Origin: an uncultured Bacilli bacterium
GTDB taxonomy: Bacteria; Bacillota_I; Bacilli_A; RF39; UBA660
Direction of reading: 5' to 3'
DNA: 43,544 bases
Assembly (NCBI GenBank): GCA_944371325.1
Contig: CALVXO010000014.1
Span: 1 to 43,544, forward strand
Part shown: positions 24,825-41,942 of the stretch, one piece after another
Numbering within the stretch: position 1 is the first letter of the stretch
Layout of the letters: each line of letters opens with the position of its first letter
Notes under the pieces: model-generated
Databases searched by the model: none
Told to the model about the DNA's origin: nothing
What the model saw: only the letters and a program-made list of their open reading frames with translations
Program-made: the position numbers and the translations under genes

Positions 24825-26822
24825 ATGAAAAAGATAATAAATGTTATTTTTGCTGTTATTTTTCTTTTTGTTAGTTTAATTCCCCCTGTTTTTGCAGAAG
24901 AAGTAAGATATGGTTATGTTAGTTCTACTCAAGGTAATGGTATATCAGTAAGATCTGGAGCTGGAACTAGTTATTCTAAATTAAGTGATGGGTTAGGAGA
25001 AGGCGAACAAGTTAAAATATTAGCTGAATATAAACCTGATGATGGAACAGATAGTTCTTGTAGTTTATGGTATAAAATTGAATTTAATGAAGTTGATTCA
25101 GGTATTGGATATGCATGTGCGGATTTGATTAAAATAATTGAAATTCAAACAGATGAAGATTTTGAAGAAAGTTTGGAAGCTTTTCCTGAAAGTTATCATG
25201 ATTCTTTAAGATTATTACACACTATTTATCCTAATGCTATATTTAAAGCATATGATACTAGATTAGATTTTAATACTGTTGTTAAAAATGAAGCAACTTT
25301 AGGTAAAAGTTTAATTTGGGATTCAAATAATTCACGTGATGGTTTAAAGCATATGGATAGTTATAATTATAAAACTAATAAATTTGCTAACAATTATCCT
25401 GGCGGTGGTTCTACATGGTATGCAGCTAGTAAAGAAACAATCGCTTATTATATTGATCCGAGAAACTTTTTAAACGAAAATAGAGTATTTATGTTTGAAA
25501 GTTTATCTTATAGTGCTTCAATTCATACAGTTGATGGAGTTGCTTCTATTTTATCTGGTAGTTTTATGGCTAAGGAGAAAGTTGATGGTGGAAGTAAAAC
25601 ATTTGCTCAAGTAATTTATAATGCAGGAAATAAATATCAAATAAGTCCGTATTATTTAGCAAGCCGTATTTTACAAGAAACAGGATATACAAGAAGTGCT
25701 TTAGTAAAAGGAACTTATCCTAGTTACCCACAATTTAATGGTTATTATAATTTCTTTAATTATGGTGCTAGTGGAACAAATGTTGTTTATAATGGCTTAA
25801 ATTACGCATATAAAAAAGGATGGAATTCTGAAGAAAAGGCTATAACCGGTGGCGCTAGTTTAGTTGGAACCGATTATATAAGTGTTGGACAAGATACTAA
25901 CTATTTTCAAAAATGGGATGTTACGTGTCGAAAAGCTAATGTTAATGATTGTACTTTTTATTCACATCAATATATGCAAAATATTGAAGCTCCATATAGT
26001 GAAGCGGATTCTACTTATGATGGTTATAAAGAAACATTTGGTAGCAAAATGTATGATTTACCTTTTATTTTTACAATACCTGTATATAAAAATATGCCTG
26101 AGAAAGCATTGTTACCAAGTGAAAAAAATCCTATAAATTATTTAAAAACATTGACTGTTAATGGTAAGAGTGTTAGTAACTTTAATAGTTTAAAAACAGC
26201 TTATTCAATAACATTACCATCTAATGTTGGTAGTGTAAGTGTAGGAGCAACTGTTATAGAAAGCAAATCTAAAGTATCTGGTATTGGTACAATTAAAATA
26301 ACTAAAAATGGACAAGTTATACCTGTTACTGTAACAGCTCAAAATGGTGATAAATTAGTTTATAATATTACAGTTAAATTGACTGATGCTGAAAGTATGA
26401 CTTTAGATGATACAATTAATAATATAAAATCTGGAACCTTTAAAGATGGATATATAACCGGGTTAACTAATACTTCAACTATTATAAAAGCAGTAACAGA
26501 TGTTAATGAATTAGCGGATGTTAAAGTTACTGATTTAAATGGTAAAGAAGCTAGTGATTCTGTCGGAACAGGTTATAAAGTAACAATTACCGTTGGTGAA
26601 GAAAGTAAAACTTTTGAAGTTGTTATCTATGGTGATACTAATGGTGATGGTGAAATAGATATATTAGATTTATTAAGAGTTCAAAAACATATTTTAAAAG
26701 CTTCGACTTTAAATAAAACACAAATAAAAGCAAGTGATGTTTCTAAAGATGGAACTGTTGATATATTAGATTTACTTAAAGTTCAAAAACATATTTTAGG
26801 AGCGTCAACTATAAAACAATAA
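24825..26822 (+). CDS. Secreted SH3b-glucosaminidase with C-terminal dockerin
   Basis: This 665-residue exported wall hydrolase has a signal peptide ending near VFAEE (about 26). An SH3b domain (about 30-105) has GNGISVRSGAGTSYSKL. A glucosaminidase domain (about 215-370) has the catalytic-Glu segment LASRILQETGYTRSAL and FNYGAS, as in enzymes that cut N-acetylglucosamine bonds in peptidoglycan. A cadherin-like beta sandwich (about 435-525) follows. The end is a type I-like dockerin with two calcium loops, DTNGDGEIDILDLLRVQKHI and DVSKDGTVDILDLLKVQKHI. A cohesin-like gene follows 10 bases later, its probable docking partner. Confidence 0.9.
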   Translation: MKKIINVIFAVIFLFVSLIPPVFAEEVRYGYVSSTQGNGISVRSGAGTSYSKLSDGLGEGEQVKILAEYKPDDGTDSSCSLWYKIEFNEVDSGIGYACADLIKIIEIQTDEDFEESLEAFPESYHDSLRLLHTIYPNAIFKAYDTRLDFNTVVKNEATLGKSLIWDSNNSRDGLKHMDSYNYKTNKFANNYPGGGSTWYAASKETIAYYIDPRNFLNENRVFMFESLSYSASIHTVDGVASILSGSFMAKEKVDGGSKTFAQVIYNAGNKYQISPYYLASRILQETGYTRSALVKGTYPSYPQFNGYYNFFNYGASGTNVVYNGLNYAYKKGWNSEEKAITGGASLVGTDYISVGQDTNYFQKWDVTCRKANVNDCTFYSHQYMQNIEAPYSEADSTYDGYKETFGSKMYDLPFIFTIPVYKNMPEKALLPSEKNPINYLKTLTVNGKSVSNFNSLKTAYSITLPSNVGSVSVGATVIESKSKVSGIGTIKITKNGQVIPVTVTAQNGDKLVYNITVKLTDAESMTLDDTINNIKSGTFKDGYITGLTNTSTIIKAVTDVNELADVKVTDLNGKEASDSVGTGYKVTITVGEESKTFEVVIYGDTNGDGEIDILDLLRVQKHILKASTLNKTQIKASDVSKDGTVDILDLLKVQKHILGASTIKQ

Positions 26823-26832
26823 GGAGGGTATA

Positions 26833-28308
26833 ATGAAAAAAATTAGTTTAATAATATTTAGTATATTTTTAAGTTTTATAATTATAAACAAAGTAGATGC
26901 TTCTAGTGCAACTATAAGTGTTTATTCTTCTAAATCAACTGTTATAGTAGGTGATACAGTTACAGTAACTGTTAAAGTATCTTCTTCAGCTAACTTAGGT
27001 TCTTGGAATTTTGATGTTGTTCCATCATCTAACTTAAGTTTTGTAAGTTCTAGTTTTGGGGGATTATTTGTTGCAGAATCTTCCTCAAGTTTGAATTCAA
27101 AATCAAAAACGTATACTTTCAAATTTAGAGCAAAATCATCTGGTACCGGTTCTGTTAGTATTAAAAATGCTCGTGTTTTAGACATGGATACTGAAAAAAA
27201 TATGAGTGTTTCAGCTGGTAAAACTAGTTTCAAAATGATGACACAATCTGAATTAGAGTCTACTTATAGTAAAAATAATAATTTATCTAGTTTAAAAATT
27301 GAAGGTTATGATTTAGAATTTAACAAAGATACTTTAGAATATAATATTGATTTGAATTTTGATGTTACTGAAATTAATGTTATAGCTGAACCTGAAGATA
27401 GTAAATCTTCTGTTGATGGAGACGGTAAAGTTACTTTATCACAAGGAATGAATCAAATTAAAATAGTTGTTACTGCTCAAAATGGTAATACAAAAACATA
27501 TGTTATAAATGCGAATGTTAAAGAGATGAATCCTATTGAAGTTAATATAGATGGTAATACATACACAGTTGTTAGACAAAAAGAATTTTTACCTGTTGCT
27601 AGTATGTATTATCAAGAAACAACTGTTAAAATAAATGAAGAAGATGTTCCTGCATATTATAATCAAACTGTAGATTTTACTTTAGTAGGACTAAAAGATA
27701 GCAGTGGGAATGTTAATTTATATTTATATAAAGATGGTAACTATACTTTATATAAAGAAGCTAATTTCAATTCATTAGGTATTTATATTTTAGATATGGA
27801 TGAATCATTAATTCCAAGAGGATATTCTGAAACTAAAATAAATATTGGTGATAAAGAAGTAGTAGCTTATTCAAAAGAAGGTTATGAGTATCCATTAATA
27901 TATGGTTTAAACTTAGAAAACGGTAGTAAAAATTTATATAAATATGATGCTAAAGAAAATACGCTACAAAGATATGAATCAGTTACATTAAATGAAGATT
28001 TATATTTTAATGCTTTAATTGGTATGTTTGGATTTATAATAGTTTCATATATTATATTTATCGTGTTATTATCAAATAAAAATAAACAACAAAAAAATTT
28101 CTTAGATAAAACAATGCGGATGAATATTATTGATGTAAATGATAACGCCTTAGAAAATGTTTTAGGTGTTAAAACTAAAAAAGAATTAAAAAAAGAAAAA
28201 AAATTAGCTAAAAAATTAGCTAAAAAGAATAAAGGTATTGTTGAAAATATAGAAAATAATCCAAAAGAAGAAGATGTAAAAGGCGAAGAAGAAATGGCTA
28301 GTTTATAG
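26833..28308 (+). CDS. Membrane-anchored cohesin-like protein
   Basis: This 491-residue protein has an N-terminal signal peptide (to about 23) and a cohesin-type beta sandwich (about 25-135, with ISVYSSKSTVIVGDTVTVTV, LGSWNFDV and a GTGSVSIKNARVLD strand). A cadherin-like domain (about 150-235) follows, then a region without recognised motifs (about 240-395), one membrane helix (about 402-422) and a Lys/Glu-rich cytosolic tail. TAAGGAGGG precedes the ATG. Being directly after the dockerin protein, it is the likely membrane receptor for it. Cohesin assignment rests on length, strand pattern and context, so it should be tested by structure. Confidence 0.75.
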   Translation: MKKISLIIFSIFLSFIIINKVDASSATISVYSSKSTVIVGDTVTVTVKVSSSANLGSWNFDVVPSSNLSFVSSSFGGLFVAESSSSLNSKSKTYTFKFRAKSSGTGSVSIKNARVLDMDTEKNMSVSAGKTSFKMMTQSELESTYSKNNNLSSLKIEGYDLEFNKDTLEYNIDLNFDVTEINVIAEPEDSKSSVDGDGKVTLSQGMNQIKIVVTAQNGNTKTYVINANVKEMNPIEVNIDGNTYTVVRQKEFLPVASMYYQETTVKINEEDVPAYYNQTVDFTLVGLKDSSGNVNLYLYKDGNYTLYKEANFNSLGIYILDMDESLIPRGYSETKINIGDKEVVAYSKEGYEYPLIYGLNLENGSKNLYKYDAKENTLQRYESVTLNEDLYFNALIGMFGFIIVSYIIFIVLLSNKNKQQKNFLDKTMRMNIIDVNDNALENVLGVKTKKELKKEKKLAKKLAKKNKGIVENIENNPKEEDVKGEEEMASL

Positions 28309-28397: not shown

Positions 28398-28455
28398 TAA
28401 TTATGCAGGAAATCACTATACCTTTGGTTAATAAAACTAATAGGAGGTGATTTAT

Positions 28456-29295
28456 ATAAAACAATTTTATACTGCAAGACATGAACCTATTTTTATGTAT
28501 GCTGCTGTTAAAAAAGAATTTTTAATAGCTATTTTAGAACCAATTTTAGATAAAAAAATTGAAGACTTACAAATACTAAATCCAAATTTAATTCAGGATT
28601 ATTATAAACTACGTGGTCAAAGATTAGATTTATTGGTAAAAACAAAAGATGAGATAATTAATGTTGAATTAAATACTAATTATAGTTAAGAAATAAAAAT
28701 AAGAAATCTACATTATGTTTTTAAATTAGCAAGTGAAAATACAGAAAGAGGAAATAAATACAAAATAGGTTATCCGATAATTCAAGTAAATTTAAATTTT
28801 TATAATAGTAAATATGAAAAATGTGAATATTTATTATATGATAAAACGCATAAAATAGAGTTAACTGATTATATAAAAATATATAATGTAGGTATAGACA
28901 AATACATAAAAAACTATTATAATAATGATAAGAAGTTTACCAAAGGTGAAGAAGCATTAATAATGTTAGATTTAGATAAACAAGGATTAGAAGAATTATC
29001 AGAAAAGAGTGAGATAGTGAATAATTTTAAAGAAGAAGTAGTAAAAGCAAATAATGATGAGTTTGTAGTGGATTGGATAAGTCGCGAAGAAGAACAAAAA
29101 CAATATGAAGAAGTAATGTATGAAAAAGGACTTAATCAAGGAAAAGAACAGGGATTATCTCAAGGCAAGCAAGAAGGAATCGAACAAACTAAAATAGATG
29201 TAGCTAAAGAAATGTTAGAATTAAATATGGATTTGGAAACAATAAGCAAGGTAACTAAATTAGCTAAAGATCAAATAGAAAGTTTAAGAAATTAA
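28456..29295 (+). pseudogene. Inactivated Rpn-family nuclease gene (PD-(D/E)XK, transposase_31 type)
   Basis: The frame from 28456 to 29295 encodes one Rpn-type protein of about 280 residues, broken twice. At the expected start, 8 bases after AGGAGG (28442-28447), the codon is ATA, probably a lost ATG. At 28687-28689 TAA interrupts the nuclease core, after RLDLLVKTKDEIINVELN (Asp and ExN of the fold) and before EIKIRNLHYVFKL; the frame continues intact on both sides. The C-terminus shows the GLNQGKEQGLSQGKQEG repeat and VAKEMLELNMDLETIS helix usual in the family. Rpn proteins promote DNA recombination in E. coli. A single nonsense change suggests recent loss. Confidence 0.85.
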
Positions 29296-29535: not shown

Positions 29536-30681
29536 TCATGTAAATAACTTAGTATTATTTATTAAACCTTCCCACATTATATTTATTGCTGCATTTATAT
29601 CTCGATCATTTTCATTGTTGCATTTTGAACATGTCCATTTTCTTTTATTTAAGTCTTTTAATTCTTTATTTTTATTATTACAATGACTACATATTTGACT
29701 ACTTGGATAATATGTGTCTATTTGATAAAAATGTTTGTTTTGCCATTTACTTTTATATTCTAGTTGTCTTATTATTTCACTTAAACTTGCATCACTTAAA
29801 TATTTGGACATCTCTTTTTTTTCTATTAGTTTTTTTATTTGTATGGTTTCGGTTATTATTAAGTCGTTAGCACTTACTATTTCTTTTGTTATTTTATGAA
29901 TTGTATAATTTCTTGCGTTTTTTAGTTTTTTATATGTTTCTTTTATTTTGTTTTTTATTTTGTAATAATTTTTGCTATATTTTTCTTTTTTGCTTAACCA
30001 TTTTTGTAAATTTTTTATTTTATTTTCATATTTGGTTATGTATTTTTTATTTTCGTATTTTTCTCCGAAACTTGTTATTACTAAATCTTTTACTCCTAAA
30101 TCTATTCCAACTATTGTTTTTGGAATTATATTTTTTTCTTTTATTTCTTGTTCATATAATACTGATACATAGTATTTATTTGTTTCTTTACTTATTGTAG
30201 CATTTATTATTCTTCCTTTTATTTCTTTTGTTTTACGATATCCTCTTATTTTCATATTCTTTAGTTTTGGTAACGTGATTGTTTTGTTTATTATATCTAA
30301 TTTGATATTTTCATATACTTTATTTTTATAGATGTTTTTTATATAGTTTGTGCGATAACTATTTTTACTATATTTGTCTTTATATTTTGGATAATTTTTT
30401 GTTCTATGAAAATTTTTAAAGGCATTTCCTAAATCAAATATAGTAGTTGATAGAGCCATACTATCTACTTCCATTAACCATGGATATGTTTGTTTTAAAA
30501 GTGGTAATTCTTTTATACAATCAAATTTTTGCTTAGTCATTTTATTTTCTTTATATAGTTTTTCTTTTTCATATAACATTGTATTATAGATAAATCTAGT
30601 ACTGCCTAAAGTTTTATTTATTAATTCTTGTTGAATTTTGTTTGGATATAATCTAAATTTATATGCTTTATATATTTTCAT
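29536..30681 (-). CDS. tnpB: TnpB RNA-guided endonuclease (IS200/IS605 family)
   Basis: TnpB is the ancestor-type nuclease of Cas12 and cuts DNA matching its omega-RNA guide. The 381-residue protein is complete: N-terminal MKIYKAYKFRLYPNK, RuvC residues Asp194 (VGIDLGVKDL), Glu278 (LIITETIQIK) and Asp361 (NDRDINAA), and the four-Cys zinc finger C331/C334/C351/C354. I start at 30681 because GGTGA lies just upstream and the family begins there; the longer frame to 30717 adds residues not typical of it. No inactivating change is seen, so it is probably active. Confidence 0.92.
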   Translation of the reverse strand: MKIYKAYKFRLYPNKIQQELINKTLGSTRFIYNTMLYEKEKLYKENKMTKQKFDCIKELPLLKQTYPWLMEVDSMALSTTIFDLGNAFKNFHRTKNYPKYKDKYSKNSYRTNYIKNIYKNKVYENIKLDIINKTITLPKLKNMKIRGYRKTKEIKGRIINATISKETNKYYVSVLYEQEIKEKNIIPKTIVGIDLGVKDLVITSFGEKYENKKYITKYENKIKNLQKWLSKKEKYSKNYYKIKNKIKETYKKLKNARNYTIHKITKEIVSANDLIITETIQIKKLIEKKEMSKYLSDASLSEIIRQLEYKSKWQNKHFYQIDTYYPSSQICSHCNNKNKELKDLNKRKWTCSKCNNENDRDINAAINIMWEGLINNTKLFT

Positions 30682-30701
30682 TTTATCACCACTGTGATTA
30701 A

Positions 30702-30730
30702 ATTTTATCATACGCACATATGTTTGTCAA
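30702..30730 (-). promoter_or_regulatory. Promoter for tnpB
   Basis: On the minus strand TTGACA (30725-30730), 17 bases, and TAAAAT (30702-30707) with TG extension form a near-consensus promoter 21 bases before the tnpB start. Confidence 0.8.
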
Positions 30731-30833: not shown

Positions 30834-31805
30834 CTATTTTTTTATTAAAAATTCTTTTATTTCATTTGGATTTTTATCATTGAAAATTATATCATAAATT
30901 AAATTAATTATAGGAATATTAACTTTTTTATTATCTAATAATTTGTAAATTGATTTTAATGTATACAATCCTTCAATAGTAGTATTATTTTTATATTGTT
31001 CAATTAATTCTTTCGGATTTCCTTCGCCAATCATTTTACCAAATCTAAAGTTTCTACTTTTAATACTTGTCGCAGTTAATAATAAATCTCCAAATCCAGC
31101 AAAAGAAAGAATTGTATTTTTATTACCATCTAGAGCCTTTATAATTTCTTTCATATCATGTAATGCTTCAGTGATAAACATAGCTTGTGTAGATTCTGGT
31201 AATCCCATTCCATCAATTATACCAGAAGCTATCGCAATGATATTTTTTACGGAACCACAAACTTCGATGCCAACTATGTCATCAGTAGTTCTTAGTTTTA
31301 AACAATCATTTTGTAAAGCATCAATTATAATATTTTTTGTTTCTTCATTTTTAGTAGCTAATGATAGACCAATAGGTACTCTTTTAATTATGTCTATTGC
31401 AAAACTAGGTCCTGATATGACAGCAATTCTATCAGTATTAATATACTTCTTTACTACTGCATCAACGAATAAACAGGTATCTTGTTCAATTCCTTTACTA
31501 GCTATACATATATGTTGATTTTTATAATATTGTTTTAATTCTTTTGATACACTATCAACAAATCCAGCAGGAACTGCAATTATTATTAAATCACATCCAT
31601 CAACCGCTTCTTTTAAGTTGTTTGTATATTCAAAATTATTTGGTAAGACAAAATCAGGTAAAACCCTATTATTAGTATGATATTTTTTTAATTCTTCTAA
31701 TTCACTATCTAATTTTGTCCATATTGTTATTTTATGGTTGTTTTCATTAACCATTGTAGCTAAAGCTAATCCATATGCTCCAGCGCCTAAAATTGTTACT
31801 TTCAT
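30834..31805 (-). CDS. gpsA: Glycerol-3-phosphate dehydrogenase [NAD(P)+]
   Basis: GpsA reduces dihydroxyacetone phosphate to sn-glycerol-3-phosphate in the cytosol. This is the precursor of phospholipids and, through TagD, of glycerol-phosphate teichoic acids. The 323-residue protein begins MKVTILGAGAYGLALA (dinucleotide-binding GxGxxG), then SGPSFAIDI, EVCGSVKNIIAIASGIIDG with the catalytic Lys, and GFGDLLLT. I start at 31805 because GAGGTG lies ahead and the family begins with this strand; a frame extending to 31841 has no support. It is divergent from the teichoic-acid locus, whose substrate it supplies. Confidence 0.95.
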   Translation of the reverse strand: MKVTILGAGAYGLALATMVNENNHKITIWTKLDSELEELKKYHTNNRVLPDFVLPNNFEYTNNLKEAVDGCDLIIIAVPAGFVDSVSKELKQYYKNQHICIASKGIEQDTCLFVDAVVKKYINTDRIAVISGPSFAIDIIKRVPIGLSLATKNEETKNIIIDALQNDCLKLRTTDDIVGIEVCGSVKNIIAIASGIIDGMGLPESTQAMFITEALHDMKEIIKALDGNKNTILSFAGFGDLLLTATSIKSRNFRFGKMIGEGNPKELIEQYKNNTTIEGLYTLKSIYKLLDNKKVNIPIINLIYDIIFNDKNPNEIKEFLIKK

Positions 31806-31821
31806 ATTACACCTCAACATT

Positions 31822-31827
31822 ATTTTA
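31822..31827 (-). promoter_or_regulatory. Extended -10 for gpsA
   Basis: Minus-strand TGTTAAAAT is an extended -10, 16 bases before the gpsA start; the -35 is poor. Confidence 0.5.
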
Positions 31828-31877
31828 ACATATTTCGACACTAATTTTACAAAATTATATATTTTAATTGAGATATA

Positions 31878-31886
31878 TGTTATAAT
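31878..31886 (+). promoter_or_regulatory. Extended -10 promoter for the teichoic-acid locus
   Basis: TGTTATAAT is a perfect extended -10 (TATAAT 31881-31886), 25 bases before the first CDP-glycerol transferase, with no -35. No terminator interrupts the following genes until 43475, so it may serve the whole locus. Confidence 0.65.
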
Positions 31887-31911
31887 TTATATAGCTACAT
31901 GGGGTGAATTT

Positions 31912-33009
31912 ATGACAATATTTATTTATTTGCTGAAATTAAATTTGAAATTAGTATACTTTTTTTTGAAATTATTACCAACAAATAAATCTAAAATAGT
32001 ATTTATTAGTCGTCAATCAAATAATATATCGATTGATTTTAAAATGATTGCTGAAAAATTAAATAAATATAAGGTTGTTATAATATCAAAAAAAATAGAT
32101 ACTGGAATTATTAATTATTTAAAATATTATTTTAATTTGTATAAACAAATGTACCATTTAGCGACTTCTAAAGTTTGTATAATTGATTCTTATTGTATTC
32201 CTGTTTGTATACTTAAACATAAGAAAAATTTAGTTGTTATTCAAATTTGGCATGCTATGGGAGCTATTAAACAATTTGGATATCAAACATTATCAAAAGA
32301 AGCCGGTAGAAATGAAAAAATTTCTCATATAATGTGTATGCATAAAAACTATGATTATGTTTTATCTGGCTCTCAAAGTATGATTGAACCTTTTTCAAAA
32401 GCTTTTAATATCTCTTCTAATAAAATTATTGTAAATGGGTTACCTAGAATCGACTATATAATTAATAATAAAAAAATTTTAAGTAAAAAAATAAAAATGG
32501 ATTATAAATTATTAAAACTCAAAAAAAATATTTTGTATGTTCCTACTTTTAGAAAAAATGAATCTGTTAAAATTAATGAATTAATTAATAACTTTGATTT
32601 TGATAAATTCAATTTAATTATTAAATTACATCCTTCAAGTAACGTAAAAATTAAAAATAAAAATGTTCTTACTTGTTCGGGTTATTCATCTTTACAATTA
32701 TTAACTATAGCTGATTATGTTATAACCGACTATTCAGCAATTAGTATTGAAGCTGCTAGTTTAGATATTCCTATATTTTTATATTTATATGATTATGATC
32801 AATATGTTGATAAAAATGGCTTAAATATTGATTTATTTAGCGAATTTGGTAAATATGCATCTAAAGATATTAAACCAATATTAAAAAGTTTAAAAAAAGA
32901 AAAGTATGATATGAGTATTATTTATAATTTTAAAGAAAAATATTTAGATCCTGATTACGGTAAATATACTGATAAATTAATTAATTTCATTATTGATAAA
33001 ATGGAGTGA
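31912..33009 (+). CDS. CDP-glycerol glycerophosphotransferase 1 (TagB/TagF family)
   Basis: Members of this family transfer glycerol-phosphate from CDP-glycerol to a lipid-linked primer or growing chain on the inner face of the membrane. The 365-residue protein has the GT-B-type core: WHAMG (113-117) with the catalytic His, VNGLPRIDY, LHPSSN, TDYSAISIEAASLDIPIFL near the C-terminus. A hydrophobic, basic N-terminal helix probably binds the membrane. I start at ATG 31912, with GGGGTG upstream; the open frame continues back into gpsA but without a usable start. Being the smallest and most divergent of three, it could be the priming TagB-like enzyme, but sequence cannot prove it. Confidence 0.88.
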   Translation: MTIFIYLLKLNLKLVYFFLKLLPTNKSKIVFISRQSNNISIDFKMIAEKLNKYKVVIISKKIDTGIINYLKYYFNLYKQMYHLATSKVCIIDSYCIPVCILKHKKNLVVIQIWHAMGAIKQFGYQTLSKEAGRNEKISHIMCMHKNYDYVLSGSQSMIEPFSKAFNISSNKIIVNGLPRIDYIINNKKILSKKIKMDYKLLKLKKNILYVPTFRKNESVKINELINNFDFDKFNLIIKLHPSSNVKIKNKNVLTCSGYSSLQLLTIADYVITDYSAISIEAASLDIPIFLYLYDYDQYVDKNGLNIDLFSEFGKYASKDIKPILKSLKKEKYDMSIIYNFKEKYLDPDYGKYTDKLINFIIDKME

Positions 33010-33014
33010 TTTTA

Positions 33015-34289
33015 ATGCTTAAAAATCAAATAAAAAAAACAATAATTGATTTTTCTAAAAAAAATGTTATTTTTAGAAAAATTATTAGAAAAACATTATA
33101 TCTAAAGGGGAAAATAAACTATTTAAAATATTACAACAAATATAAAGTTGATGATAAAATGATATTTTTTGAAGCATATAATGGACGAAATTATGCATGT
33201 AGTCCTAAAGCAATCTATGAATTTATGATTAAAGATGAAAGATTTAAAGATTATAAATTTGTTTGGGCTTTTAAAGATATTGATAAATATAAATTTGATG
33301 AAAATACAATAGTAGTTAAATCAAATAGTAAAGATTATTATAAGTATTTAGCTTCTTCTAAATATTGGATAGTTAATTCTTTAATAGATGTATCTATTAA
33401 AAAGAAAAAAAATCAAATTTATTTACAATGTTGGCATGGAACCCCTTTAAAAAAATTGAGATATGATATTGAAGTTAAGGGTTCTGTGTTGAATACTATT
33501 AATGAAATTAGAAAAAGAAATGATTTAGATGCAGTTAAATTTGATTACTTTATTTCTCCTTCTAAATTTTGTACAGAAAAATTTACTTCAGCCTTTAATC
33601 TTAAAAAATTAGGTAAAGAAAATATTATAATTGAAAAAGGATATCCTAGAAATGATTATTTATTTAATTATAAAAAAGAAGAAGTTGCTAAAATTAAAAA
33701 GAAGTTAAAATTACCTACAGATAAAAAAATAATTTTATATGCTCCGACATTTAGAGATAATCAACATACTTCAGGAGTAGGTTACACATATAATTTAGGT
33801 ATTGATTTTGATAAAATGCAAAAGGAACTAAGTAAAGAATACGTTATCTTATTTAGAACACATTATTTTGTATCAAATTCATTTGATTTTACTAAATATG
33901 AAAACTTTATTTATGATGTTTCAAGTTATGACGATATCAATGAATTATATATAATTTCAGATTTATTATTAACTGATTATTCAAGTGTTTTCTTTGATTT
34001 TGCTAATTTAAGAAGGCCAATGTTATTTTATATGTATGATTTAGATGATTATAAAAATAATTTAAGAGACTTTTATTTTGATTTGGATATTTTACCAGGT
34101 CCTATTGTAAAACAAGAGGATGATTTAATTAAAGAAATTAAAAATATAGATAATTATGATGCAGTATATCATGATAAATATGTAAAATTTAATAATAAAT
34201 TTAATTATTTAGATGATGGAAAAGCAACAAAAAGAGTAGTGGAGGTTATATTTTATGAGAAAAATAATAAAAATTTTAAAGAAAATTAA
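33015..34289 (+). CDS. CDP-glycerol glycerophosphotransferase 2 (TagF family)
   Basis: The 424-residue enzyme has a basic amphipathic N-terminus and the full polymerase-type core: QCWHGTPLKKL with His141, KGYPRNDY, YAPTFRDN, FRTHYF and TDYSSVFFDFANLRRPMLFY. It is expected to add glycerol-phosphate units to the teichoic-acid chain. The ATG at 33015 follows GGAGTGA inside the end of the previous gene, with only five bases between the genes. The next gene overlaps its end by 35 bases. A 29-base stretch at 33975-34003 coding for the TDYSSVFFDFA core is identical to one in the next gene. Confidence 0.9.
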   Translation: MLKNQIKKTIIDFSKKNVIFRKIIRKTLYLKGKINYLKYYNKYKVDDKMIFFEAYNGRNYACSPKAIYEFMIKDERFKDYKFVWAFKDIDKYKFDENTIVVKSNSKDYYKYLASSKYWIVNSLIDVSIKKKKNQIYLQCWHGTPLKKLRYDIEVKGSVLNTINEIRKRNDLDAVKFDYFISPSKFCTEKFTSAFNLKKLGKENIIIEKGYPRNDYLFNYKKEEVAKIKKKLKLPTDKKIILYAPTFRDNQHTSGVGYTYNLGIDFDKMQKELSKEYVILFRTHYFVSNSFDFTKYENFIYDVSSYDDINELYIISDLLLTDYSSVFFDFANLRRPMLFYMYDLDDYKNNLRDFYFDLDILPGPIVKQEDDLIKEIKNIDNYDAVYHDKYVKFNNKFNYLDDGKATKRVVEVIFYEKNNKNFKEN

Positions 34290-36693
34290 AAAAAATATAA
34301 AAAAAATTAATAAATCAAATTTTGCAAAATGGAAATATATAAATTATTATTATCATTTAAAAATAGACAATAGTGTTATATTATTAGAATCACAGCAAGG
34401 AAGAGAAGTTAATGGAAATATTTATTATATTCTAAAAGAATTAAGTACAAATGAAGAATATATTTCTTATAAATTATATTTAACAGTTTTAAAAGAAAAT
34501 AAAGAAAAAATAAAAAAATTCTTATACTGTAAAGGAATAAAAAATGTTAATTTTGTTGAATTAAACACAAAAGAATATTTTAAAATTATATCTAAAGCAA
34601 AATTTCTAATTAATGATAACACCTTTTTACCTTTTTTTATAAAAAAAGAAGATCAAATTTATTTAAATACATGGCATGGAACACCATTAAAAAGTTTAGG
34701 TAAAAATATTAAAAATGATATGCATAATATAGGAAATACGCAAAAAAACTTTTTAATGTCTGATTATTTACTTTATCCAAATGAATATACTAGAGATCAT
34801 ATAATAGAAGATTATATGATTGGAAATTTAAAATGTAATATAAACATAATGATGAGTGGTTATCCAAGAAATAGTGTATTTTTTGATGATGAACAAAGGA
34901 TAAGCATTAGAAAAAATCTTAATTTAGAAGGAAAGCAAGTTATAGCATATATGCCAACTTGGAGAGGTACTGTCCAAAACCAAAAAAATAATGCTCAAGA
35001 TATTAATTATATATTACAAAAATTAGATAAAAAATTAAATTCAAATCAAATTTTGTATGTAAATTTACATCCCATAGAAAAATCAAAAGTAAATTATAAT
35101 AAATTTAGAAAAATAAAACCATTTCCAAGTGATTACGAAACTTATGAATTTTTAAATGCTGCAGATTTATTGATTACGGATTATTCAAGTGTTTTCTTTG
35201 ATTTTGCCAATACAAATCGTAAAATAATTTTGTTTACATATGACAAGAATGAATACCTAAGTGATCGTGGTTTATATATGATGCTAGAAGAATTACCATT
35301 TTCAATAGTATATAATATTAAAGATTTAATAAATGAAATAAATTGTGACAATGATTATAATTATGACGAATTTAAAAAGATTTTTTGTAAGTATGACAGC
35401 ATTAATGTAACAAAAAAAATTTGTGAAAGAATTATCTTGAATAAGCAAAATAATCTTAAAATTGATAAATTAAAATCGAATAAAAAAGAAAATGTTTTAA
35501 TATATCCTGGAAATTTAGCTCCGAATGGAGTTACAGCTTCTTTAAAAAATTTATTATCTTCAGTTGATAGGACCAAACGTAATTATTACCTTCTTTTGGA
35601 TTCTAAATCAGTTCAGCGCTATCAAAATGAATTGTATGATCTTTCAAAATATGTTGATTACATTACAATAAAGGGCCAAATGAATTTAAGTTTATTAAAT
35701 AAAATAATTAATTTGTTTTATCGACATAAATTAATTTCCACTTTTGTTTTTATGAAAATGTTTAGAAGACACTTTAAAACAGAAATTAAGAGGATTTTAG
35801 GAGAATCAAAATTTGATACAGTTATTCAGTTTTCTGGATACGCCTATAAAAAAATATTATTATTATCTTGTTTTGATTGTAATCGAATAATATATGTGCA
35901 TAGTGATATGAAAAAAGAAATTGAAACTAGAAAAAATCAAAGAAAAGATGTTTTAAAATATGCTTATAATAATTATGACAAAATCGCTATCGTAACAGAA
36001 GATTTATTAGATTCAACATGTTATTTTATGAAAAGAAAAAATAAAAATAAAATTATGGTTGTTAATAATCTTATTAATTATGATATAATTAATAAGAAAA
36101 AGAATTTACCAGTCAAAATTGAAAATAGTACAACAATGAATATTTCTTTTGCAAAATTAAATAAAATACTAAATAGCAAATCAAAAAAATTTATTAATGT
36201 AGGTAGATTTTCACCTGAAAAAGGACAATTTAGATTAATAAAATGTTTTGAACGTTTATGGAAAGAAGATAATTCAATTTATTTGATAATTATGGGTGGA
36301 AGAGGAGAACTTTATGAACAAATTGTTGATTATATTTCTAAATTAGAATGTAAAAACAATATTGTTACTATTTATAATGTAAAAAATCCATACGCAATTT
36401 TAAATCGTTGTAATTATTTTGTATTATCATCATTTTATGAGGGGTTTGGGCTTGTATTAGTTGAGGCAAATATATGTAATTTACCAATTATTTCTACAAA
36501 TATTGATGGACCTAAAAAATTTATGGAAAAATACGGTGGAACTTTGGTTGAAAATTCAGAAGAGGGTATTTACAAAGGGATGAAATCACTTTTAAATGAT
36601 GAAATAAAAGTGATTAATGTAAATTATGAAGATTACAATATGTTTGCACTAAATCAATTTGAAAATTTGTTTAAAAAGAAAGGAAAAAGATAA
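34255..36693 (+). CDS. Fusion: CDP-glycerol glycerophosphotransferase plus GT4 glycosyltransferase
   Basis: This 812-residue protein joins two enzymes. The first 390 residues are a CDP-glycerol transferase with NTWHGTPLKSLG (His141), SGYPRNSVF, YMPTWRG and TDYSSVFFDFANTNRK. Residues from about 415 to the end are a GT-B glycosyltransferase of family 4: PGNLAPNGVTASLKNLL, NVGRFSPEKGQ, and YEGFGLVLVEANICNLPI (E-x7-E). A natural reading is that one domain elongates the glycerol-phosphate chain and the other adds a sugar to it. It starts at ATG 34255 after GGAGG, within the preceding gene. The tagD start lies one base after its stop. Confidence 0.88.
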   Translation: MRKIIKILKKIKKNIKKINKSNFAKWKYINYYYHLKIDNSVILLESQQGREVNGNIYYILKELSTNEEYISYKLYLTVLKENKEKIKKFLYCKGIKNVNFVELNTKEYFKIISKAKFLINDNTFLPFFIKKEDQIYLNTWHGTPLKSLGKNIKNDMHNIGNTQKNFLMSDYLLYPNEYTRDHIIEDYMIGNLKCNINIMMSGYPRNSVFFDDEQRISIRKNLNLEGKQVIAYMPTWRGTVQNQKNNAQDINYILQKLDKKLNSNQILYVNLHPIEKSKVNYNKFRKIKPFPSDYETYEFLNAADLLITDYSSVFFDFANTNRKIILFTYDKNEYLSDRGLYMMLEELPFSIVYNIKDLINEINCDNDYNYDEFKKIFCKYDSINVTKKICERIILNKQNNLKIDKLKSNKKENVLIYPGNLAPNGVTASLKNLLSSVDRTKRNYYLLLDSKSVQRYQNELYDLSKYVDYITIKGQMNLSLLNKIINLFYRHKLISTFVFMKMFRRHFKTEIKRILGESKFDTVIQFSGYAYKKILLLSCFDCNRIIYVHSDMKKEIETRKNQRKDVLKYAYNNYDKIAIVTEDLLDSTCYFMKRKNKNKIMVVNNLINYDIINKKKNLPVKIENSTTMNISFAKLNKILNSKSKKFINVGRFSPEKGQFRLIKCFERLWKEDNSIYLIIMGGRGELYEQIVDYISKLECKNNIVTIYNVKNPYAILNRCNYFVLSSFYEGFGLVLVEANICNLPIISTNIDGPKKFMEKYGGTLVENSEEGIYKGMKSLLNDEIKVINVNYEDYNMFALNQFENLFKKKGKR

Positions 36694-36694
36694 C

Positions 36695-37147
36695 ATGAAA
36701 AGAATTTTAACATATGGTACATTTGATTTATTACATTATGGTCATATTAGATTACTAAAGAGGGCAAAAGCATTAGGAGATTATTTAATAGTAGCTTTGA
36801 GTACTGATGAGTTCAACGCTATTAAAGGAAAAAAAGCATACCATAATTATGAAACTAGAAAATTAATGCTAGAAGCAATAAGATATGTCGATTTAGTTAT
36901 ACCTGAAGAAAATTGGGAACAAAAAATTAATGATGTAAAAGAATATAAAGCAGACGTTGTTGTTATGGGAAGTGATTGGGCAGGTAGTGATAGATTCAAT
37001 TATTTAACTGATTATTGTGAAGTAGTATATTTAGATAGAACTGAAGGAATATCTACTACAAAAATAAAAGAGGAATTAAAACTTCAAGAACCTATTAATG
37101 GCATAGATCAAATTCCTGGACAAGATGAAACGAATTTAGGAAAGTAG
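36695..37147 (+). CDS. tagD: Glycerol-3-phosphate cytidylyltransferase TagD
   Basis: TagD makes CDP-glycerol from CTP and sn-glycerol-3-phosphate, the donor for the three transferases upstream. The 150-residue protein has TYGTFDLLHYGH with the HxGH motif (14-17) and RTEGISTT (115-122), both characteristic. The last 20 residues (after KIKEELK) are an extra polar tail. I start at ATG 36695, one base after the previous stop, since the protein family begins with KRILTYGTF; AAAGGA is upstream. dltA follows 10 bases after its stop. Confidence 0.95.
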   Translation: MKRILTYGTFDLLHYGHIRLLKRAKALGDYLIVALSTDEFNAIKGKKAYHNYETRKLMLEAIRYVDLVIPEENWEQKINDVKEYKADVVVMGSDWAGSDRFNYLTDYCEVVYLDRTEGISTTKIKEELKLQEPINGIDQIPGQDETNLGK

Positions 37148-37157
37148 GAAGATAATT

Positions 37158-38675
37158 ATGAAGAAAAGTATAGTTAGTTATTTAGAGGAAAATGCTAAAA
37201 TTTTAAAAGAAAAAACTATTTTTGAAGAAAGTAATAAAAAAGTAAGTTACTCCGAATTTTGCAAAGATTCTAAAATTATTGCCTCTAATATTTTAAAAAA
37301 TGGAGAAGAAATATATAATGAACCAATTGCAATTTTTATAGACAAAAGTATTCAATGCTTGGAAGTAATGTTTGGTATTTTATATAGTGGGAATTGTTAT
37401 TGCGTTTTAGATACTACTTCACCTCAAGAAAGAATTTCGACAATAATTAATACTTTAAATCCTAAATTAATAATTTCTGATAATAAACATATTAGCGAAT
37501 TGTCTAGTTATAATATTCAAAAATTAAATATTGACAGTTTATCTATAACAAATATAAATGAGAAGAAATTAGATAAAGTTGAGAAAAAAAGAATTGATAC
37601 GGATCCAGCCTATATTTTATTCACAAGTGGTTCAACTGGTATTCCTAAAGGAACAGTAATTACACACCGCTCACTTATAAACTATGTTAAATGGTTTGGC
37701 ATAACTTTTAATATTAATGATAAAACAATTTTTGGAAATCAGACACCATTTTACTTTAGTATGTCTGTATCTGATGTTTATTCTACTGTTATGTTTGGAG
37801 CAACTTTAAATATAATTCCAAAAATTAATTTTTCTTTTCCTGTTAATTTAATTAAATATTTAAATGAACATATGATAAATACTATATATTGGGTTCCTTC
37901 CATTATTAGTATAGTAGCAAACTCGAAAATTTTTGATTATATTTTACCAGAGTATTTAGAAAAAGTTTTATTTGCTGGTGAAGTTATGCCAATGCCACAA
38001 TTAAATATATGGAGAAAATATTTACCCAATTTGTTTTATGCTAATTTGTATGGACCTACTGAAACAACGGACATTTGTGCTTATTATATAATAAATCGTG
38101 ATTTTAAAGATAATGAAACGCTTCCAATAGGAAAAGCTTGTGACAATTTAGAAATTATGCTCATTACTGATGATGGAAAACAAGTATCTTCTGATGAAAT
38201 TGGTGAAATATTTGTAAGAGGTTCATTTGTTGGTAATGGATATTATAACAACATTGAAAAAACTAATTTATCTTTTGTTCAAAATCCTTTGAACAAAAAC
38301 TATCCTGAAATTGTATATAAAACTGGTGATTTGGGAAAAATTAATAAATATGGAGAAATAGAGTATTATGGACGTAAGGATTTTCAAATAAAACATATGG
38401 GATATCGCATTGAATTAGGGGAAATCGAAACAAATATAAATTCTTTAGAAGGATTAACTATTTGTGCTTGTATTTATGATATAATTAATAAATTTATAGT
38501 ATTATTTTATGAATCTCAAATATTAAATGATGCTGATGTCATAAATTATTCCGATAAAAAATTATTAAAATATATGCGTCCAAATAAAATTATAAAATTA
38601 TCAAAAATGCCTTATAATGCTAACGGAAAAATAGATAGAGTAGAATTAAAAAAAATATACGAGGAGATGATATAG
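37158..38675 (+). CDS. dltA: DltA-like D-alanine--carrier protein ligase
   Basis: This ANL-superfamily enzyme activates an amino acid with ATP and loads it on a carrier protein. The 505 residues match the DltA length. The P-loop is LFTSGSTGIPKG (about 154-165), followed by YGPTETTD (298-305), YKTGDLG and YGRKDFQIKHMGYRIELGEIE segments, and the catalytic Lys491 in NANGKIDR. The gene for a small carrier follows one base later. D-alanine is the expected substrate because the set sits in a teichoic-acid locus; another amino acid cannot be excluded. AGGAAGA lies before the ATG. Confidence 0.88.
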   Translation: MKKSIVSYLEENAKILKEKTIFEESNKKVSYSEFCKDSKIIASNILKNGEEIYNEPIAIFIDKSIQCLEVMFGILYSGNCYCVLDTTSPQERISTIINTLNPKLIISDNKHISELSSYNIQKLNIDSLSITNINEKKLDKVEKKRIDTDPAYILFTSGSTGIPKGTVITHRSLINYVKWFGITFNINDKTIFGNQTPFYFSMSVSDVYSTVMFGATLNIIPKINFSFPVNLIKYLNEHMINTIYWVPSIISIVANSKIFDYILPEYLEKVLFAGEVMPMPQLNIWRKYLPNLFYANLYGPTETTDICAYYIINRDFKDNETLPIGKACDNLEIMLITDDGKQVSSDEIGEIFVRGSFVGNGYYNNIEKTNLSFVQNPLNKNYPEIVYKTGDLGKINKYGEIEYYGRKDFQIKHMGYRIELGEIETNINSLEGLTICACIYDIINKFIVLFYESQILNDADVINYSDKKLLKYMRPNKIIKLSKMPYNANGKIDRVELKKIYEEMI

Positions 38676-38676
38676 T

Positions 38677-38898
38677 ATGAAAGAAATAATAGAAATATTA
38701 AATGAAATAAAACCTGGAATAGATTATGCAAACGAAAAAAATTTAATAACAAATGAAATTTTGACATCTTTTGATATTGTTATGTTAATTTCATTGTTGA
38801 ATAATAAATTTAATGTCAATATTACACCAATCGAATTAGTACCTGAAAATTTTGAAAATGTTGAAGCAATAGAAAAATTAATTAATAAACTAAAATAA
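38677..38898 (+). CDS. dltC: Carrier protein, DltC-like
   Basis: This 73-residue acyl-carrier-type protein is predicted to carry the activated D-alanine on a phosphopantetheine arm. The attachment serine is most likely Ser31 in ILTSFDIVMLISLLN, where the usual Asp before Ser is replaced by Thr. Helices and acidic character fit the fold. It has GAGGAGA upstream, one base after dltA. Confidence 0.8.
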   Translation: MKEIIEILNEIKPGIDYANEKNLITNEILTSFDIVMLISLLNNKFNVNITPIELVPENFENVEAIEKLINKLK

Positions 38899-38915
38899 TT
38901 TTAATTGGTGATAAT

Positions 38916-40406
38916 ATGAATTATGTTTCATTAGTTTTTTTGATATTTGTTGTTTTATTGATTTCAATTTATTATATATTGCCAAAAAAAAGAAGATGGT
39001 ATGTTATTTTAATTGGTAATATAATTTTTTTCTTGTCTTTAAGTGGCAGTTTAATAATTTTTCTGTTTTTATCCTCTTTAATTGCTTTTTTTACTGCAAA
39101 TTTTATTGATAAATACAAAAATAAAAATAGGATAGTTCTTATTTTATCTATAATATTGATTTTGAGCTTTTTAATTGCTTTGAAATATTCTAATTTTCTT
39201 TTTTCATTAATAAATCCAATTATTAATATAATAGGATTTAATATTCCGTATGCTAATTTAATAATGCCAATAGGTATTTCATATTATACTTTAGAAATGA
39301 TTTCATATGTTGTTGATGTTTATAGAAAAAAAATTAATCCTGAGAAAAATTTTTTAAAATTATTTACTTTCTTTTCATATTTTCCTAAAATAATTGAAGG
39401 ACCTATTAGCAGGTATTCAAATCTAAAAGAAGAAATATTTAATGAAAAAAAGTTCGATTATGAAAATTTTAAATCTGCGTGGGTATTAATTGGCTATGGA
39501 TTTATGAAAAAATTAATAATTGCCGATCGATTAGGAATTTTTGTTGATAATGTCTTTAAAAATAATTATGTAGGAATACCTGTTGCTTTAGCTGTTATTA
39601 TGTATACAATTCAAATTTATTGTGATTTTTCGGGATGTATAGATATTGTAAGTGGAGTATCAGAATTATTCAATATAAAGTTACCAAATAATTTTAAAAG
39701 ACCATTTTTTTCACAATCTATTCAAGAGTTTTGGCGTAGATGGCATATAACTTTAGGTGAATGGTTAAAAGATTATATATTTTATCCTATTTCATTATCA
39801 AAAATAAACATGAAATTAAACTTAAAAGTGCGTAAAATTAAATTTAAACATTTATCTAAGTTTATAATAATTGCATTTCCATTATTTTTTGTTTGGTTCT
39901 TTAATGGCTTATGGCATGGAGCAAGTATAAAATACATACTATATGGTTTATATTATTATTTACTTATGATGTTAGGTGTTCTGTTAAAGCCTGTTTTAGA
40001 TAAAATAGTTATTTTGTTGAAGGTAAATACAAATGTTTGGAGTTTTAAATTGTTTAGAATTTTACGAACACTTTTAATTGTTTGTATTGGAATGTTGTTG
40101 TTTAGAAGTGAAAATGTTAATCAATTTTTTTCTATGATTAAAGGTATGTTTTCTTTATCTTCAAATGTTGTTTTTTCAAATTTAGGATTAAATTTATTAG
40201 ACTTTTTAGTTAGCTGCATTTTTATTATAATAATTTTTTCTATAGAACTTTCTCAAGAATTAGGGATAAATGTTAGAGAAAAATTAAATGATCAAAATTT
40301 AATTTTTAGATGGATTGTCTATTTGTTTATCATTTTTTCAATTTTAATTTTTGGAATATACGGTAGGGGATATGCTGCTAAAAGCTTTATATATGGAGGT
40401 TTTTAA
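38916..40406 (+). CDS. MBOAT acyltransferase, AlgI/DltB type
   Basis: A polytopic membrane O-acyltransferase of 496 residues with about ten membrane segments. Family marks are EGPISRY (161-167), YCDFSGCIDI (235-244), EFWRRWHITL (271-280) and NGLWHGAS with the likely catalytic His334. By position it does the DltB step, moving the acyl group across the membrane to the outer face. Its length and sequence are closer to AlgI-type alginate/exopolysaccharide acetyltransferases than to classic DltB, which has about 400 residues. TTGGTGA is upstream, and the DltD-like gene begins right after its stop. Confidence 0.88.
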   Translation: MNYVSLVFLIFVVLLISIYYILPKKRRWYVILIGNIIFFLSLSGSLIIFLFLSSLIAFFTANFIDKYKNKNRIVLILSIILILSFLIALKYSNFLFSLINPIINIIGFNIPYANLIMPIGISYYTLEMISYVVDVYRKKINPEKNFLKLFTFFSYFPKIIEGPISRYSNLKEEIFNEKKFDYENFKSAWVLIGYGFMKKLIIADRLGIFVDNVFKNNYVGIPVALAVIMYTIQIYCDFSGCIDIVSGVSELFNIKLPNNFKRPFFSQSIQEFWRRWHITLGEWLKDYIFYPISLSKINMKLNLKVRKIKFKHLSKFIIIAFPLFFVWFFNGLWHGASIKYILYGLYYYLLMMLGVLLKPVLDKIVILLKVNTNVWSFKLFRILRTLLIVCIGMLLFRSENVNQFFSMIKGMFSLSSNVVFSNLGLNLLDFLVSCIFIIIIFSIELSQELGINVREKLNDQNLIFRWIVYLFIIFSILIFGIYGRGYAAKSFIYGGF

Positions 40407-41471
40407 ATGAATGAATCAGTAAAAAATTTATTTAAATTTATTATTTTTGTGTCAATAACTTTATTTTTAATATATAAAGTTGGCATTATTTTTGTTCCTG
40501 AAACTATTTCAAACGGAGGATTACAAGGGCAAACGATTACAACTAAAGGATATTATGAATTACCATCAAATTCAATCGATGTATTATTTTTAGGTGATAG
40601 TACTATGCTTAATGCTGTTTCACCAATGGAATTATGGAACAATTTTGGTATTGTATCTTACAATTATAGTGTTTCTTCTGTTAGAACTTATGGGACTTAT
40701 TATATGCTCAAAGACGCTTTAAAAACTCAAAATCCTAAATTGGTGGTTATAGATTCTGATACGATGTTTTACAAATATAAATTTAATGAACCGCATCAAA
40801 GGGCACATATTGATCATTTAAAAAATTTATTTGTAAAGTATGAATTAGTTAATGATGAAAATTATCCTTTTTCTTTTATGGATAAATTATCTGCTTACTT
40901 TCCTCTATTACGATATCATAGTCGCTGGAATGAGTTAAAATTAAAAGATATAAAAAAATTAAATAAAAATTATTATTCAGTTACTAAAGGTTTTGTAATG
41001 GCTTCGTCAGTTATACCTAGTGAAAATTCAGAAATATATATGGATGAATACAATGAAAATGTAAATTTTGAAAATAATTCATACGAATACTTAGAAAAAA
41101 TTTATAACTATTGTACTGAAAAAAATATTTTATTAATGATACTTCAAACTCCTAATAGTAGAGATTGGGGGAAAACTCAATCAAAATTAGTTAAAGAATT
41201 TGCTGATTCTCATAACATTAAATTTTTGGATTTTAACACTTTTGAATTTGGATTAAATTGGAATGAAGATACAAAAGATGGTGGTGCTCATTTAAATGTT
41301 TTAGGCGCAATAAAATTGACTAATTATTTGGGTGGATATTTAAAAAATAATTTTGATTTACCAGACAATAGACAAAATTTTTATTATACAAATTGGAATA
41401 ATGATTATAAATTGTATGAAGCAGAGCTAAATAAATATATTACTAATGCAAATAATAATATAAAAAAATGA
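40407..41471 (+). CDS. DltD-like membrane-anchored SGNH protein
   Basis: A 354-residue protein with one N-terminal membrane helix (about 10-30) and an outward SGNH-hydrolase-like domain. The catalytic nucleophile is probably Ser65 in LFLGDSTML, and the Asp/His pair lies in DGGAHLN near residue 290. DltD proteins complete D-alanylation of teichoic acid at the outer face; AlgX/AlgJ-like SGNH proteins work with AlgI-type acyltransferases in the same way. It starts one base after the MBOAT stop (GGAGG upstream) and ends in TGA overlapping the next start. Confidence 0.82.
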   Translation: MNESVKNLFKFIIFVSITLFLIYKVGIIFVPETISNGGLQGQTITTKGYYELPSNSIDVLFLGDSTMLNAVSPMELWNNFGIVSYNYSVSSVRTYGTYYMLKDALKTQNPKLVVIDSDTMFYKYKFNEPHQRAHIDHLKNLFVKYELVNDENYPFSFMDKLSAYFPLLRYHSRWNELKLKDIKKLNKNYYSVTKGFVMASSVIPSENSEIYMDEYNENVNFENNSYEYLEKIYNYCTEKNILLMILQTPNSRDWGKTQSKLVKEFADSHNIKFLDFNTFEFGLNWNEDTKDGGAHLNVLGAIKLTNYLGGYLKNNFDLPDNRQNFYYTNWNNDYKLYEAELNKYITNANNNIKK

Positions 41472-41908
41472 TGAAATTAGTAATTGAGGAAATAAAAGAA
41501 AATTATGAATATCAAAAGGAAAAAATAATATCTGATACTATTAAAAAATATTACAATATAGATCAACATAGAATTTTGTATACACAAAATGGAAAACCAT
41601 ATATTGAAAATAATAAAGTTTATTTTAGTATTTCAAACGATAATAATATATTGTTAATTGCTTTTGATATAAATCCTATTGGTGCTGATATACAATTTTA
41701 TAGAAAAATTCCCAATTATTTAAAAAAATTTCTTTTAATGGAAGATTTTAATGATATTAATGTCATTAATGAATTTTCTAAAAAAGAAGCAGTTATAAAA
41801 TTGATTGATAGTAAGCTTAATTGTATTAATGATATTGATTTAACTAAATATAAAATTCTTTCATATGAGAATGAAAAATATGTAATTAGTATTGCACAAT
41901 ATCATTAA
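41468..41908 (+). CDS. Small divergent 4'-phosphopantetheinyl transferase
   Basis: Sfp-type enzymes move phosphopantetheine from CoA to a carrier-protein serine. The 146-residue protein shows NGKPYIEN (41-48), YFSISND (52-58), IGADIQ (71-76) and EFSKKEAVIKL (102-112), in the family order. Asp74 and Glu107 keep the metal-binding places, but Gln76 replaces the usual Glu, and Asn57 stands where the His of SxSH is expected. It is also short (family about 220). The start overlaps the previous TGA (ATGA), so it belongs to the operon and most simply activates the DltC-like carrier. Activity is uncertain. Confidence 0.72.
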   Translation: MMKLVIEEIKENYEYQKEKIISDTIKKYYNIDQHRILYTQNGKPYIENNKVYFSISNDNNILLIAFDINPIGADIQFYRKIPNYLKKFLLMEDFNDINVINEFSKKEAVIKLIDSKLNCINDIDLTKYKILSYENEKYVISIAQYH

Positions 41909-41942
41909 AATTATATATATTGATATTATTTGAGGTGTTGAA

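Follow-up and report, generated by a model that had tools for sequence, protein, structure and literature searches.

A putative one-to-one cohesin-dockerin pair for membrane anchoring of a cell-wall glucosaminidase in small-genome gut Bacilli

Cohesin-dockerin pairs, which recognize each other as plug and socket, are best known from cellulose-digesting machines. In crystal structures, dockerins bind the face formed by cohesin strands 8, 3, 6, and 5, and a dual binding mode is known from clostridial cellulosomes (PMC5429695). Non-cellulosomal cohesins and dockerins are used pairwise rather than on scaffolds (PMC12997984). In a different setting, SpdC orients the membrane-associated glucosaminidase SagB of Staphylococcus aureus such that it cuts nascent strands (PMC10581084). 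Here, we analyzed a 43,544-nucleotide stretch of DNA from an uncultured Bacilli bacterium (contig CALVXO010000014.1; the window), in which 2 adjoining genes encode a secreted glucosaminidase ending in a dockerin (gene 1) and a membrane-anchored protein with a cohesin-like sandwich (gene 2). We infer with considerable confidence that the 2 products form a private cohesin-dockerin pair, which would keep the glucosaminidase, by non-covalent binding, close to the membrane's outer face. Among open-licence papers, none that we found describes a peptidoglycan glucosaminidase carrying a dockerin with a membrane cohesin encoded next to it; the system is non-cellulosomal, and we found no earlier account of cohesin-dockerin pairing in this role.

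The pair resembles the type I pairs of cellulosomes (Clostridium thermocellum 1ohz, C. cellulolyticum 1g1k/2vn5) in having the same 2 folds, the dockerin calcium-loop pattern, near-symmetric repeats, and covarying positions on the same faces. Unlike cellulosomes, however, it consists of 1 cohesin and 1 dockerin encoded side by side, without a scaffoldin of repeated cohesins or a carbohydrate-binding module, and its client is a peptidoglycan hydrolase. The best structural matches of the cohesin are from C. perfringens glycoside hydrolases (2w1n, 2jh2, 2vo8, and 2ozn) and Archaeoglobus (2xdh), but C. perfringens carries both modules on secreted carbohydrate-active enzymes, whereas in the present pair the cohesin belongs to a membrane anchor and the client is an autolysin of the wall. 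As in the mucinolysome of Limousia (cSca5, LPxTG cohesin; PMC12997984), the cohesin protein of a gut bacterium is anchored at the cell surface, although the many dockerin enzymes and multi-cohesin scaffoldins of the former target mucin. With the SagB-SpdC peptidoglycan release complex (6u0o), the pair would have in common that a partner protein keeps a glucosaminidase of related type at the membrane; SagB, however, is membrane-associated in its own right and SpdC is a membrane-embedded CAAX-protease homolog, whereas the link here would be cohesin-dockerin. Separately, the window encodes, at positions 122-763 and 24 kb from the glucosaminidase, a CAAX-protease-type membrane protein (PF02517) of the superfamily to which SpdC belongs.

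In the mechanism that we propose, the glucosaminidase would be secreted without a membrane anchor of its own, and its C-terminal dockerin would fold around calcium and plug into the cohesin, the outermost domain of the gene 2 protein. The signal peptide and single helix of that protein would anchor it in the membrane such that the cohesin faces outward. Supported by a cadherin-like spacer and by the membrane-proximal domain, the hydrolase might then cut glycan strands of young peptidoglycan near the membrane, as does SagB scaffolded by SpdC. Because the dockerin repeats are symmetric, 2 alternative binding orientations may be available; by analogy, near-symmetric repeats would fit a dual binding mode such as that of clostridial cellulosomes.

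Related genomes keep both genes together. In the window's family, which consists of small-genome gut Bacilli, a gene 2 homolog was found in 190/290 sampled genomes (a few of the weakest matches may represent the cadherin-like domain alone) and 99/143 genera, compared with 0/39 sampled genomes that belong to the class but not to the family. Of the 61 family genomes sampled first, 47 had both gene 2 and a dockerin, 10 had neither, and 4 had 1 alone (Fisher P = 4e-8). A set of 141 loci, made up of the window's own and 140 fetched ones, contains both partners in 139 cases, with the dockerin gene directly upstream of gene 2 in all but 1 of these (138/139) and a spacing ranging from −86 (overlap) to +30 nt; in the window, the 10 bases between the stop of gene 1 and the start of gene 2 contain a good ribosome site, AAGGAGGG. 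The dockerin ends at most 9 residues from the C-terminus in family loci and shares its open reading frame with the glucosaminidase in 135/139. The gene pair is thus an operon-like unit across the family. Of the window's relatives that bear a name, Candidatus Faecisoma merdavium is the nearest; its contig DVJX01000035.1 corresponds to a genome of the same genus. The same glucosaminidase-dockerin and cohesin-cadherin-transmembrane pair recurs in a family of small-genome Clostridia, in a metagenome-assembled genome (locus L095, 2617-6194) and in 9 further members of that family (loci L257-L265; L256 is L095's own locus again, the partner of L258 is cut by the contig end, and the glucosaminidase part of L265 falls outside the fetched piece). 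In L095, a cohesin-like piece at 321-1401 also adjoins an LPKTG end, and a gene that by eye is sortase-like comes next.

The domain content of the 2 proteins largely agrees with the original prediction, which had described a secreted SH3b-glucosaminidase with 2 complete dockerin repeats and, 10 bases on, a protein with a signal peptide, a sandwich, a membrane helix, and a charged tail. All of these parts were confirmed, whereas the cadherin-like domains of both proteins and the domain at residues 231-388 of gene 2 had been overlooked. In gene 1, Dockerin_1 (PF00404) is matched end to end (model positions 1-57 of 57; E = 2e-14; 53.9 bits against a cut-off of 22.9); the 2 repeats, DTNGDGEIDILDLLRVQKHIL and DVSKDGTVDILDLLKVQKHIL, are 70% identical, and the dockerin stops 7 residues short of the C-terminus. 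The catalytic region matches solved glucosaminidases, including AtlE and SagB, with E values down to 5e-15 (AtlE), whereas its score against the NCBIfam SagB model (NF052642), 63.5 bits, is under the cut-off of 425. E285 lines up with the position at which the AtlE entries 4pi7 (E) and 4pi8 (A) differ, and E occupies it in 132/134 family members. Homology to solved members and this conserved glutamate place the enzyme among the AtlE/SagB-like glucosaminidases. SH3_3 and PF12733 were matched in the gene 1 homologs of 29/40 and 22/40 family members, respectively; in the window, the cadherin-like region of gene 2 gives a local match to gene 1 at 26109-26390, and a short linker domain separates the cadherin-like domain from the dockerin. 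In 130/131 complete gene 1 homologs, there is no membrane segment after the signal peptide (beyond residue 60).

The pair might be real but serve a different job, namely that of a surface hydrolase acting on host or neighbor glycans or killing competitors, rather than remodeling the cell's own wall. The gut habitat would suit such a role, and dockerins of gut bacteria are often found on glycan-degrading enzymes (PMC12997984). We regard this as unlikely: the catalytic domain, accompanied by SH3b, belongs to the autolysin/SagB type and is retained at nearly every locus (135/139), gene 1 encodes the single such glucosaminidase in the window's genome, and, as the original prediction had stated, no carbohydrate-binding module was found. 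Furthermore, a tether near the membrane would suit the cell's own nascent wall. That a wall is present is indicated by 5 penicillin-binding-protein-type transpeptidases in the window's genome and by a teichoic-acid-like cluster at window positions 31738-43459, which comprises 3 Glyphos_transf proteins (poly(glycerophosphate) transferases), a cytidylyltransferase, dltA/dltB-like AMP-binding and MBOAT proteins, and an ABC-2 transporter; the genes for the transferases, the cytidylyltransferase, and the AMP-binding and MBOAT proteins are arranged as in teichoic acid synthesis and D-alanylation.

The original prediction had named 2 findings that would refute it: a sandwich in gene 2 that does not match a cohesin fold, and the absence of related genomes that keep both genes together. 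Neither refutation held, the second in view of the conserved adjacency described above and the first in view of the predicted structure. An AlphaFold2 model of this domain, built from 12 sequences, reached a predicted local distance difference test score (pLDDT) of 92.1 and a predicted template modeling score of 0.83, and cohesins headed the lists of structural matches. The top Foldseek match was the non-cellulosomal cohesin 2xdh of Archaeoglobus (E = 2e-6). With VIA-align, cohesins from C. perfringens, C. cellulolyticum, Acetivibrio, Ruminococcus, and C. thermocellum filled most of the first 36 places (Z from 10.4 to 13.1 over 107-119 residues), including the GH84C cohesin of C. perfringens (Z 13.1), 1g1k of C. 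cellulolyticum (Z 11.9; 26% identity), and 1ohz (Z 11.0). In the model, the sandwich is clearly a nine-strand jelly-roll of the cohesin type. The CLIPPER adhesin domain (9ifr) and TRAP-complex subunits also scored high, so that cohesins share this fold with other proteins. Identification as a cohesin draws jointly on the fold, the partner, and coevolution. In a genome scan, PF00963 matched gene 2 at a borderline 25.4 bits, over the cut-off of 24.1. The membrane-proximal beta-rich domain, which carries the conserved motif YKYDAKENTLQR, was modeled with pLDDT of 83-95 over most of its length and is conserved in the family; a fold search with the gene 2 model returned a match list taken up by the cadherin-like part rather than by this domain. 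A C-terminal membrane helix is present in all 138 complete gene 2 homologs.

The dockerin and the N-terminal domain of gene 2 have changed together across the family, as indicated by sequence distances over 134 gene pairs. Dockerin and cohesin distances are correlated (r = 0.71), also given the catalytic domain and the rest of gene 2 (partial 0.67; permutation P = 0.002), whereas the correlation of the dockerin with its own catalytic domain is weak (r = 0.27; partial 0.03). Dockerins fall into recognition classes set by helix positions 17-18 (QK, KN, RQ/RK, and LR), with the 2 repeats of one dockerin nearly always belonging to the same class, and approximately 30 class changes map onto the tree of the remaining domains. 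With close relatives excluded, the cohesin type predicts the dockerin type in 110/122 loci, compared with 72/122 for the catalytic domain and 50/122 for the rest of gene 2 (majority baseline, 63%). At the residue level, 3.4-4.0% of dockerin-cohesin pairs covary versus 0.04-0.07% of pairs between the dockerin and other domains, an excess of approximately 50 to 100 times. The dockerin positions involved are 10, 13, 14, 17, 18, and 21, in both repeats; those of the cohesin (residues 55-58, 63-64, 80-84, and 88-90), where strands 3-6 align less securely between classes, correspond to strands 3, 5, and 6 of the model and their edges, part of the surface (strands 8, 3, 6, and 5) through which crystallized cohesins bind dockerins. 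All classes of the N-terminal domain are homologous by profile comparison (window's class versus the others, 98.1-99.7%; cadherin control, 0.3%), which ruled out the short N-terminal domains of some relatives as an unrelated immunoglobulin-like domain.

Alternatively, the dockerin and the sandwich might not bind at all, the apparent coevolution stemming from DNA adjacency, recombination, or descent. The 2 coding segments are indeed just about 100 bases apart, signal peptide included. However, even closer neighbors are essentially uncorrelated: r is 0.16 between the dockerin and the 75 residues preceding it, 0.07 between the dockerin and the signal peptide lying between it and the cohesin, and 0.23 between the cohesin and the cadherin domain that follows. 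Bootstrap differences from these neighbor controls were 0.54 (0.46-0.63) for the pre-dockerin segment and 0.48 (0.39-0.57) for the cohesin-cadherin comparison, and partial correlations of the dockerin with all other segments are near zero, with the exception of the cohesin (0.68). Because DNA neighbors correlate weakly, neither shared ancestry nor DNA linkage explains the dockerin-cohesin correlation, and we consider this alternative very unlikely. The membrane tether for a hydrolase put forward in the original prediction is supported by fold, adjacency, and coevolution.

Several observations weigh against a dedicated pair. The cohesin of gene 2 is missed by a standard Pfam hmmscan, and a standard Pfam cohesin match (E ≤ 0.1) was obtained in just 7/41 family members. 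Within the commonest dockerin class (Q) alone, the count of covarying residues is no higher than background, and the residue-level claim therefore rests on differences between classes; the distance correlation persists within this class (0.61; partial 0.48; P = 0.001). Among the loci, one (L228) has a cohesin protein with no accompanying dockerin detected and another (L125) is without the upstream enzyme. In a third (L022, genome G004), the gene 1 homolog, with a cohesin partner downstream, ends in 1 dockerin repeat rather than 2, representing either a natural half-dockerin or an assembly error. In L124 (genome G032), the order is reversed, the cohesin protein being followed by a different dockerin protein of 957 aa in place of the usual upstream glucosaminidase. 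Finally, some relatives encode 2 to 4 dockerin proteins.

Several dockerin proteins per genome, as in these relatives and in the Clostridia genome of L095, which encodes 8, would be expected if the cohesin of gene 2 were a general dock for several enzymes in a small cellulosome-like system. This, too, appears highly improbable. The window's genome contains exactly 1 dockerin, on the autolysin-type enzyme, and gene 2 is its sole PF00963 match, with 1 cohesin per gene 2 protein; a single dockerin points to a one-to-one lock rather than a cellulosome. Moreover, several of the extra dockerin proteins of relatives have their own adjacent cohesin-like protein, either a membrane protein or one with a sortase motif, as well as other recognition motifs, and therefore look like further private pairs. 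A cellulosome proper was rejected for the window's genome, which lacks a multi-cohesin scaffoldin and many dockerin-bearing carbohydrate-degrading enzymes. The least plausible proposal is that the cytosolic tail of gene 2 senses or controls docking, as the original prediction had suggested from its length and charge in the window: tails range from 1 to 173 residues across the family (median 47), 92% are net positive, as expected of a stop-transfer tail, and the clostridial partners end a few residues past a helix at their very end, so that a plain stop-transfer tail fits better.

Private pairing, as proposed for genes 1 and 2, may extend beyond this enzyme. Extra two-gene units in relatives (L240, L244, L253, L255, L249, and L254) each combine a dockerin-ended secreted protein with its own cohesin-like anchor, some of the anchors having an NPxTG-type sorting end. 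The dockerin-ended proteins include a papain-like protease, a metallo-beta-lactamase-like/choline-binding protein, a protein with leucine-rich repeats, and one of 1846 residues with 12 cadherin-like repeats; for the protease, the leucine-rich repeat protein, and the 1846-residue protein, the anchor comes directly after. This suggests that these bacteria generally use adjacent, private plug-and-socket pairs for anchoring. A still broader proposition, to which we incline slightly less than to its opposite, is that operon-encoded, mutually specific pairs generally dock secreted proteins (the wall glucosaminidase, papain-like proteases, and others) on membrane or wall anchors in small-genome gut Bacilli and Clostridia, that the glucosaminidase pair replaces a membrane-tethered SagB, and that the many orthogonal types have switched specificity together some 30 times. 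If the pair of genes 1 and 2 works as proposed, cohesin-dockerin recognition would move from polysaccharide digestion into core cell-wall biology, providing reduced-genome bacteria with a peptidoglycan-hydrolase anchor that is one-to-one, reversible, and calcium-linked, and dockerins and cohesins in gut genomes without a cellulosome would acquire a testable role. More than 100 natural cognate pairs in several recognition classes would offer a direct view of how plug and socket change specificity jointly, and the family could serve as a source of orthogonal protein connectors.

Table 1. Features of the 2 genes, with residue numbers in each protein and positions in the window
Feature	Residues	Position	Strand	Basis or remark
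Gene 1, secreted SH3b-glucosaminidase-cadherin-like-dockerin protein	665 aa	24825-26822	+	
Signal peptide	1-24	24825-24896	+	Hydropathy
SH3_3 domain	39-102	24939-25130	+	Pfam match below cut-off in window protein
Glucosaminidase catalytic domain	195-403	25407-26033	+	SagB model; AtlE/SagB structures
Predicted catalytic glutamate	285	25677-25679	+	
Cadherin-like domain	~436-517	26130-26375	+	Local match
Type I dockerin	602-658	26628-26798	+	2 calcium repeats, from D604 and D638
Gene 2, membrane-anchored cohesin protein	491 aa	26833-28308	+	
Signal peptide	1-23	26833-26901	+	
Predicted cohesin domain (N-terminal sandwich)	24-140	26902-27252	+	AlphaFold2 model; structure matches; PF00963
Cadherin-like domain	151-227	27283-27513	+	PF12733, E = 4e-10
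Membrane-proximal beta-rich domain	~231-388	27523-27996	+	Model; without Pfam family
Transmembrane helix	395-413	28015-28071	+	
Lys- and Glu-rich cytosolic tail	414-491 (78 aa)	28072-28305	+	

The gene pair is flanked on one side by a CDP-alcohol phosphatidyltransferase-like gene on the reverse strand and on the other by nuclease-like fragments and a transposase-like gene, all recognized by eye. The 2 adjoining fragments (28447-29295) resemble a broken PD-(D/E)XK (Rpn-like) nuclease gene and are followed by the gene for a TnpB-like transposase (29536-30717). Elsewhere in the window, a gene at 6805-9663 encodes a protein with 3 lamin-tail domains and a CotH kinase domain and is followed by genes that, by eye, are VTC-type-like and DUF4956-type-like.

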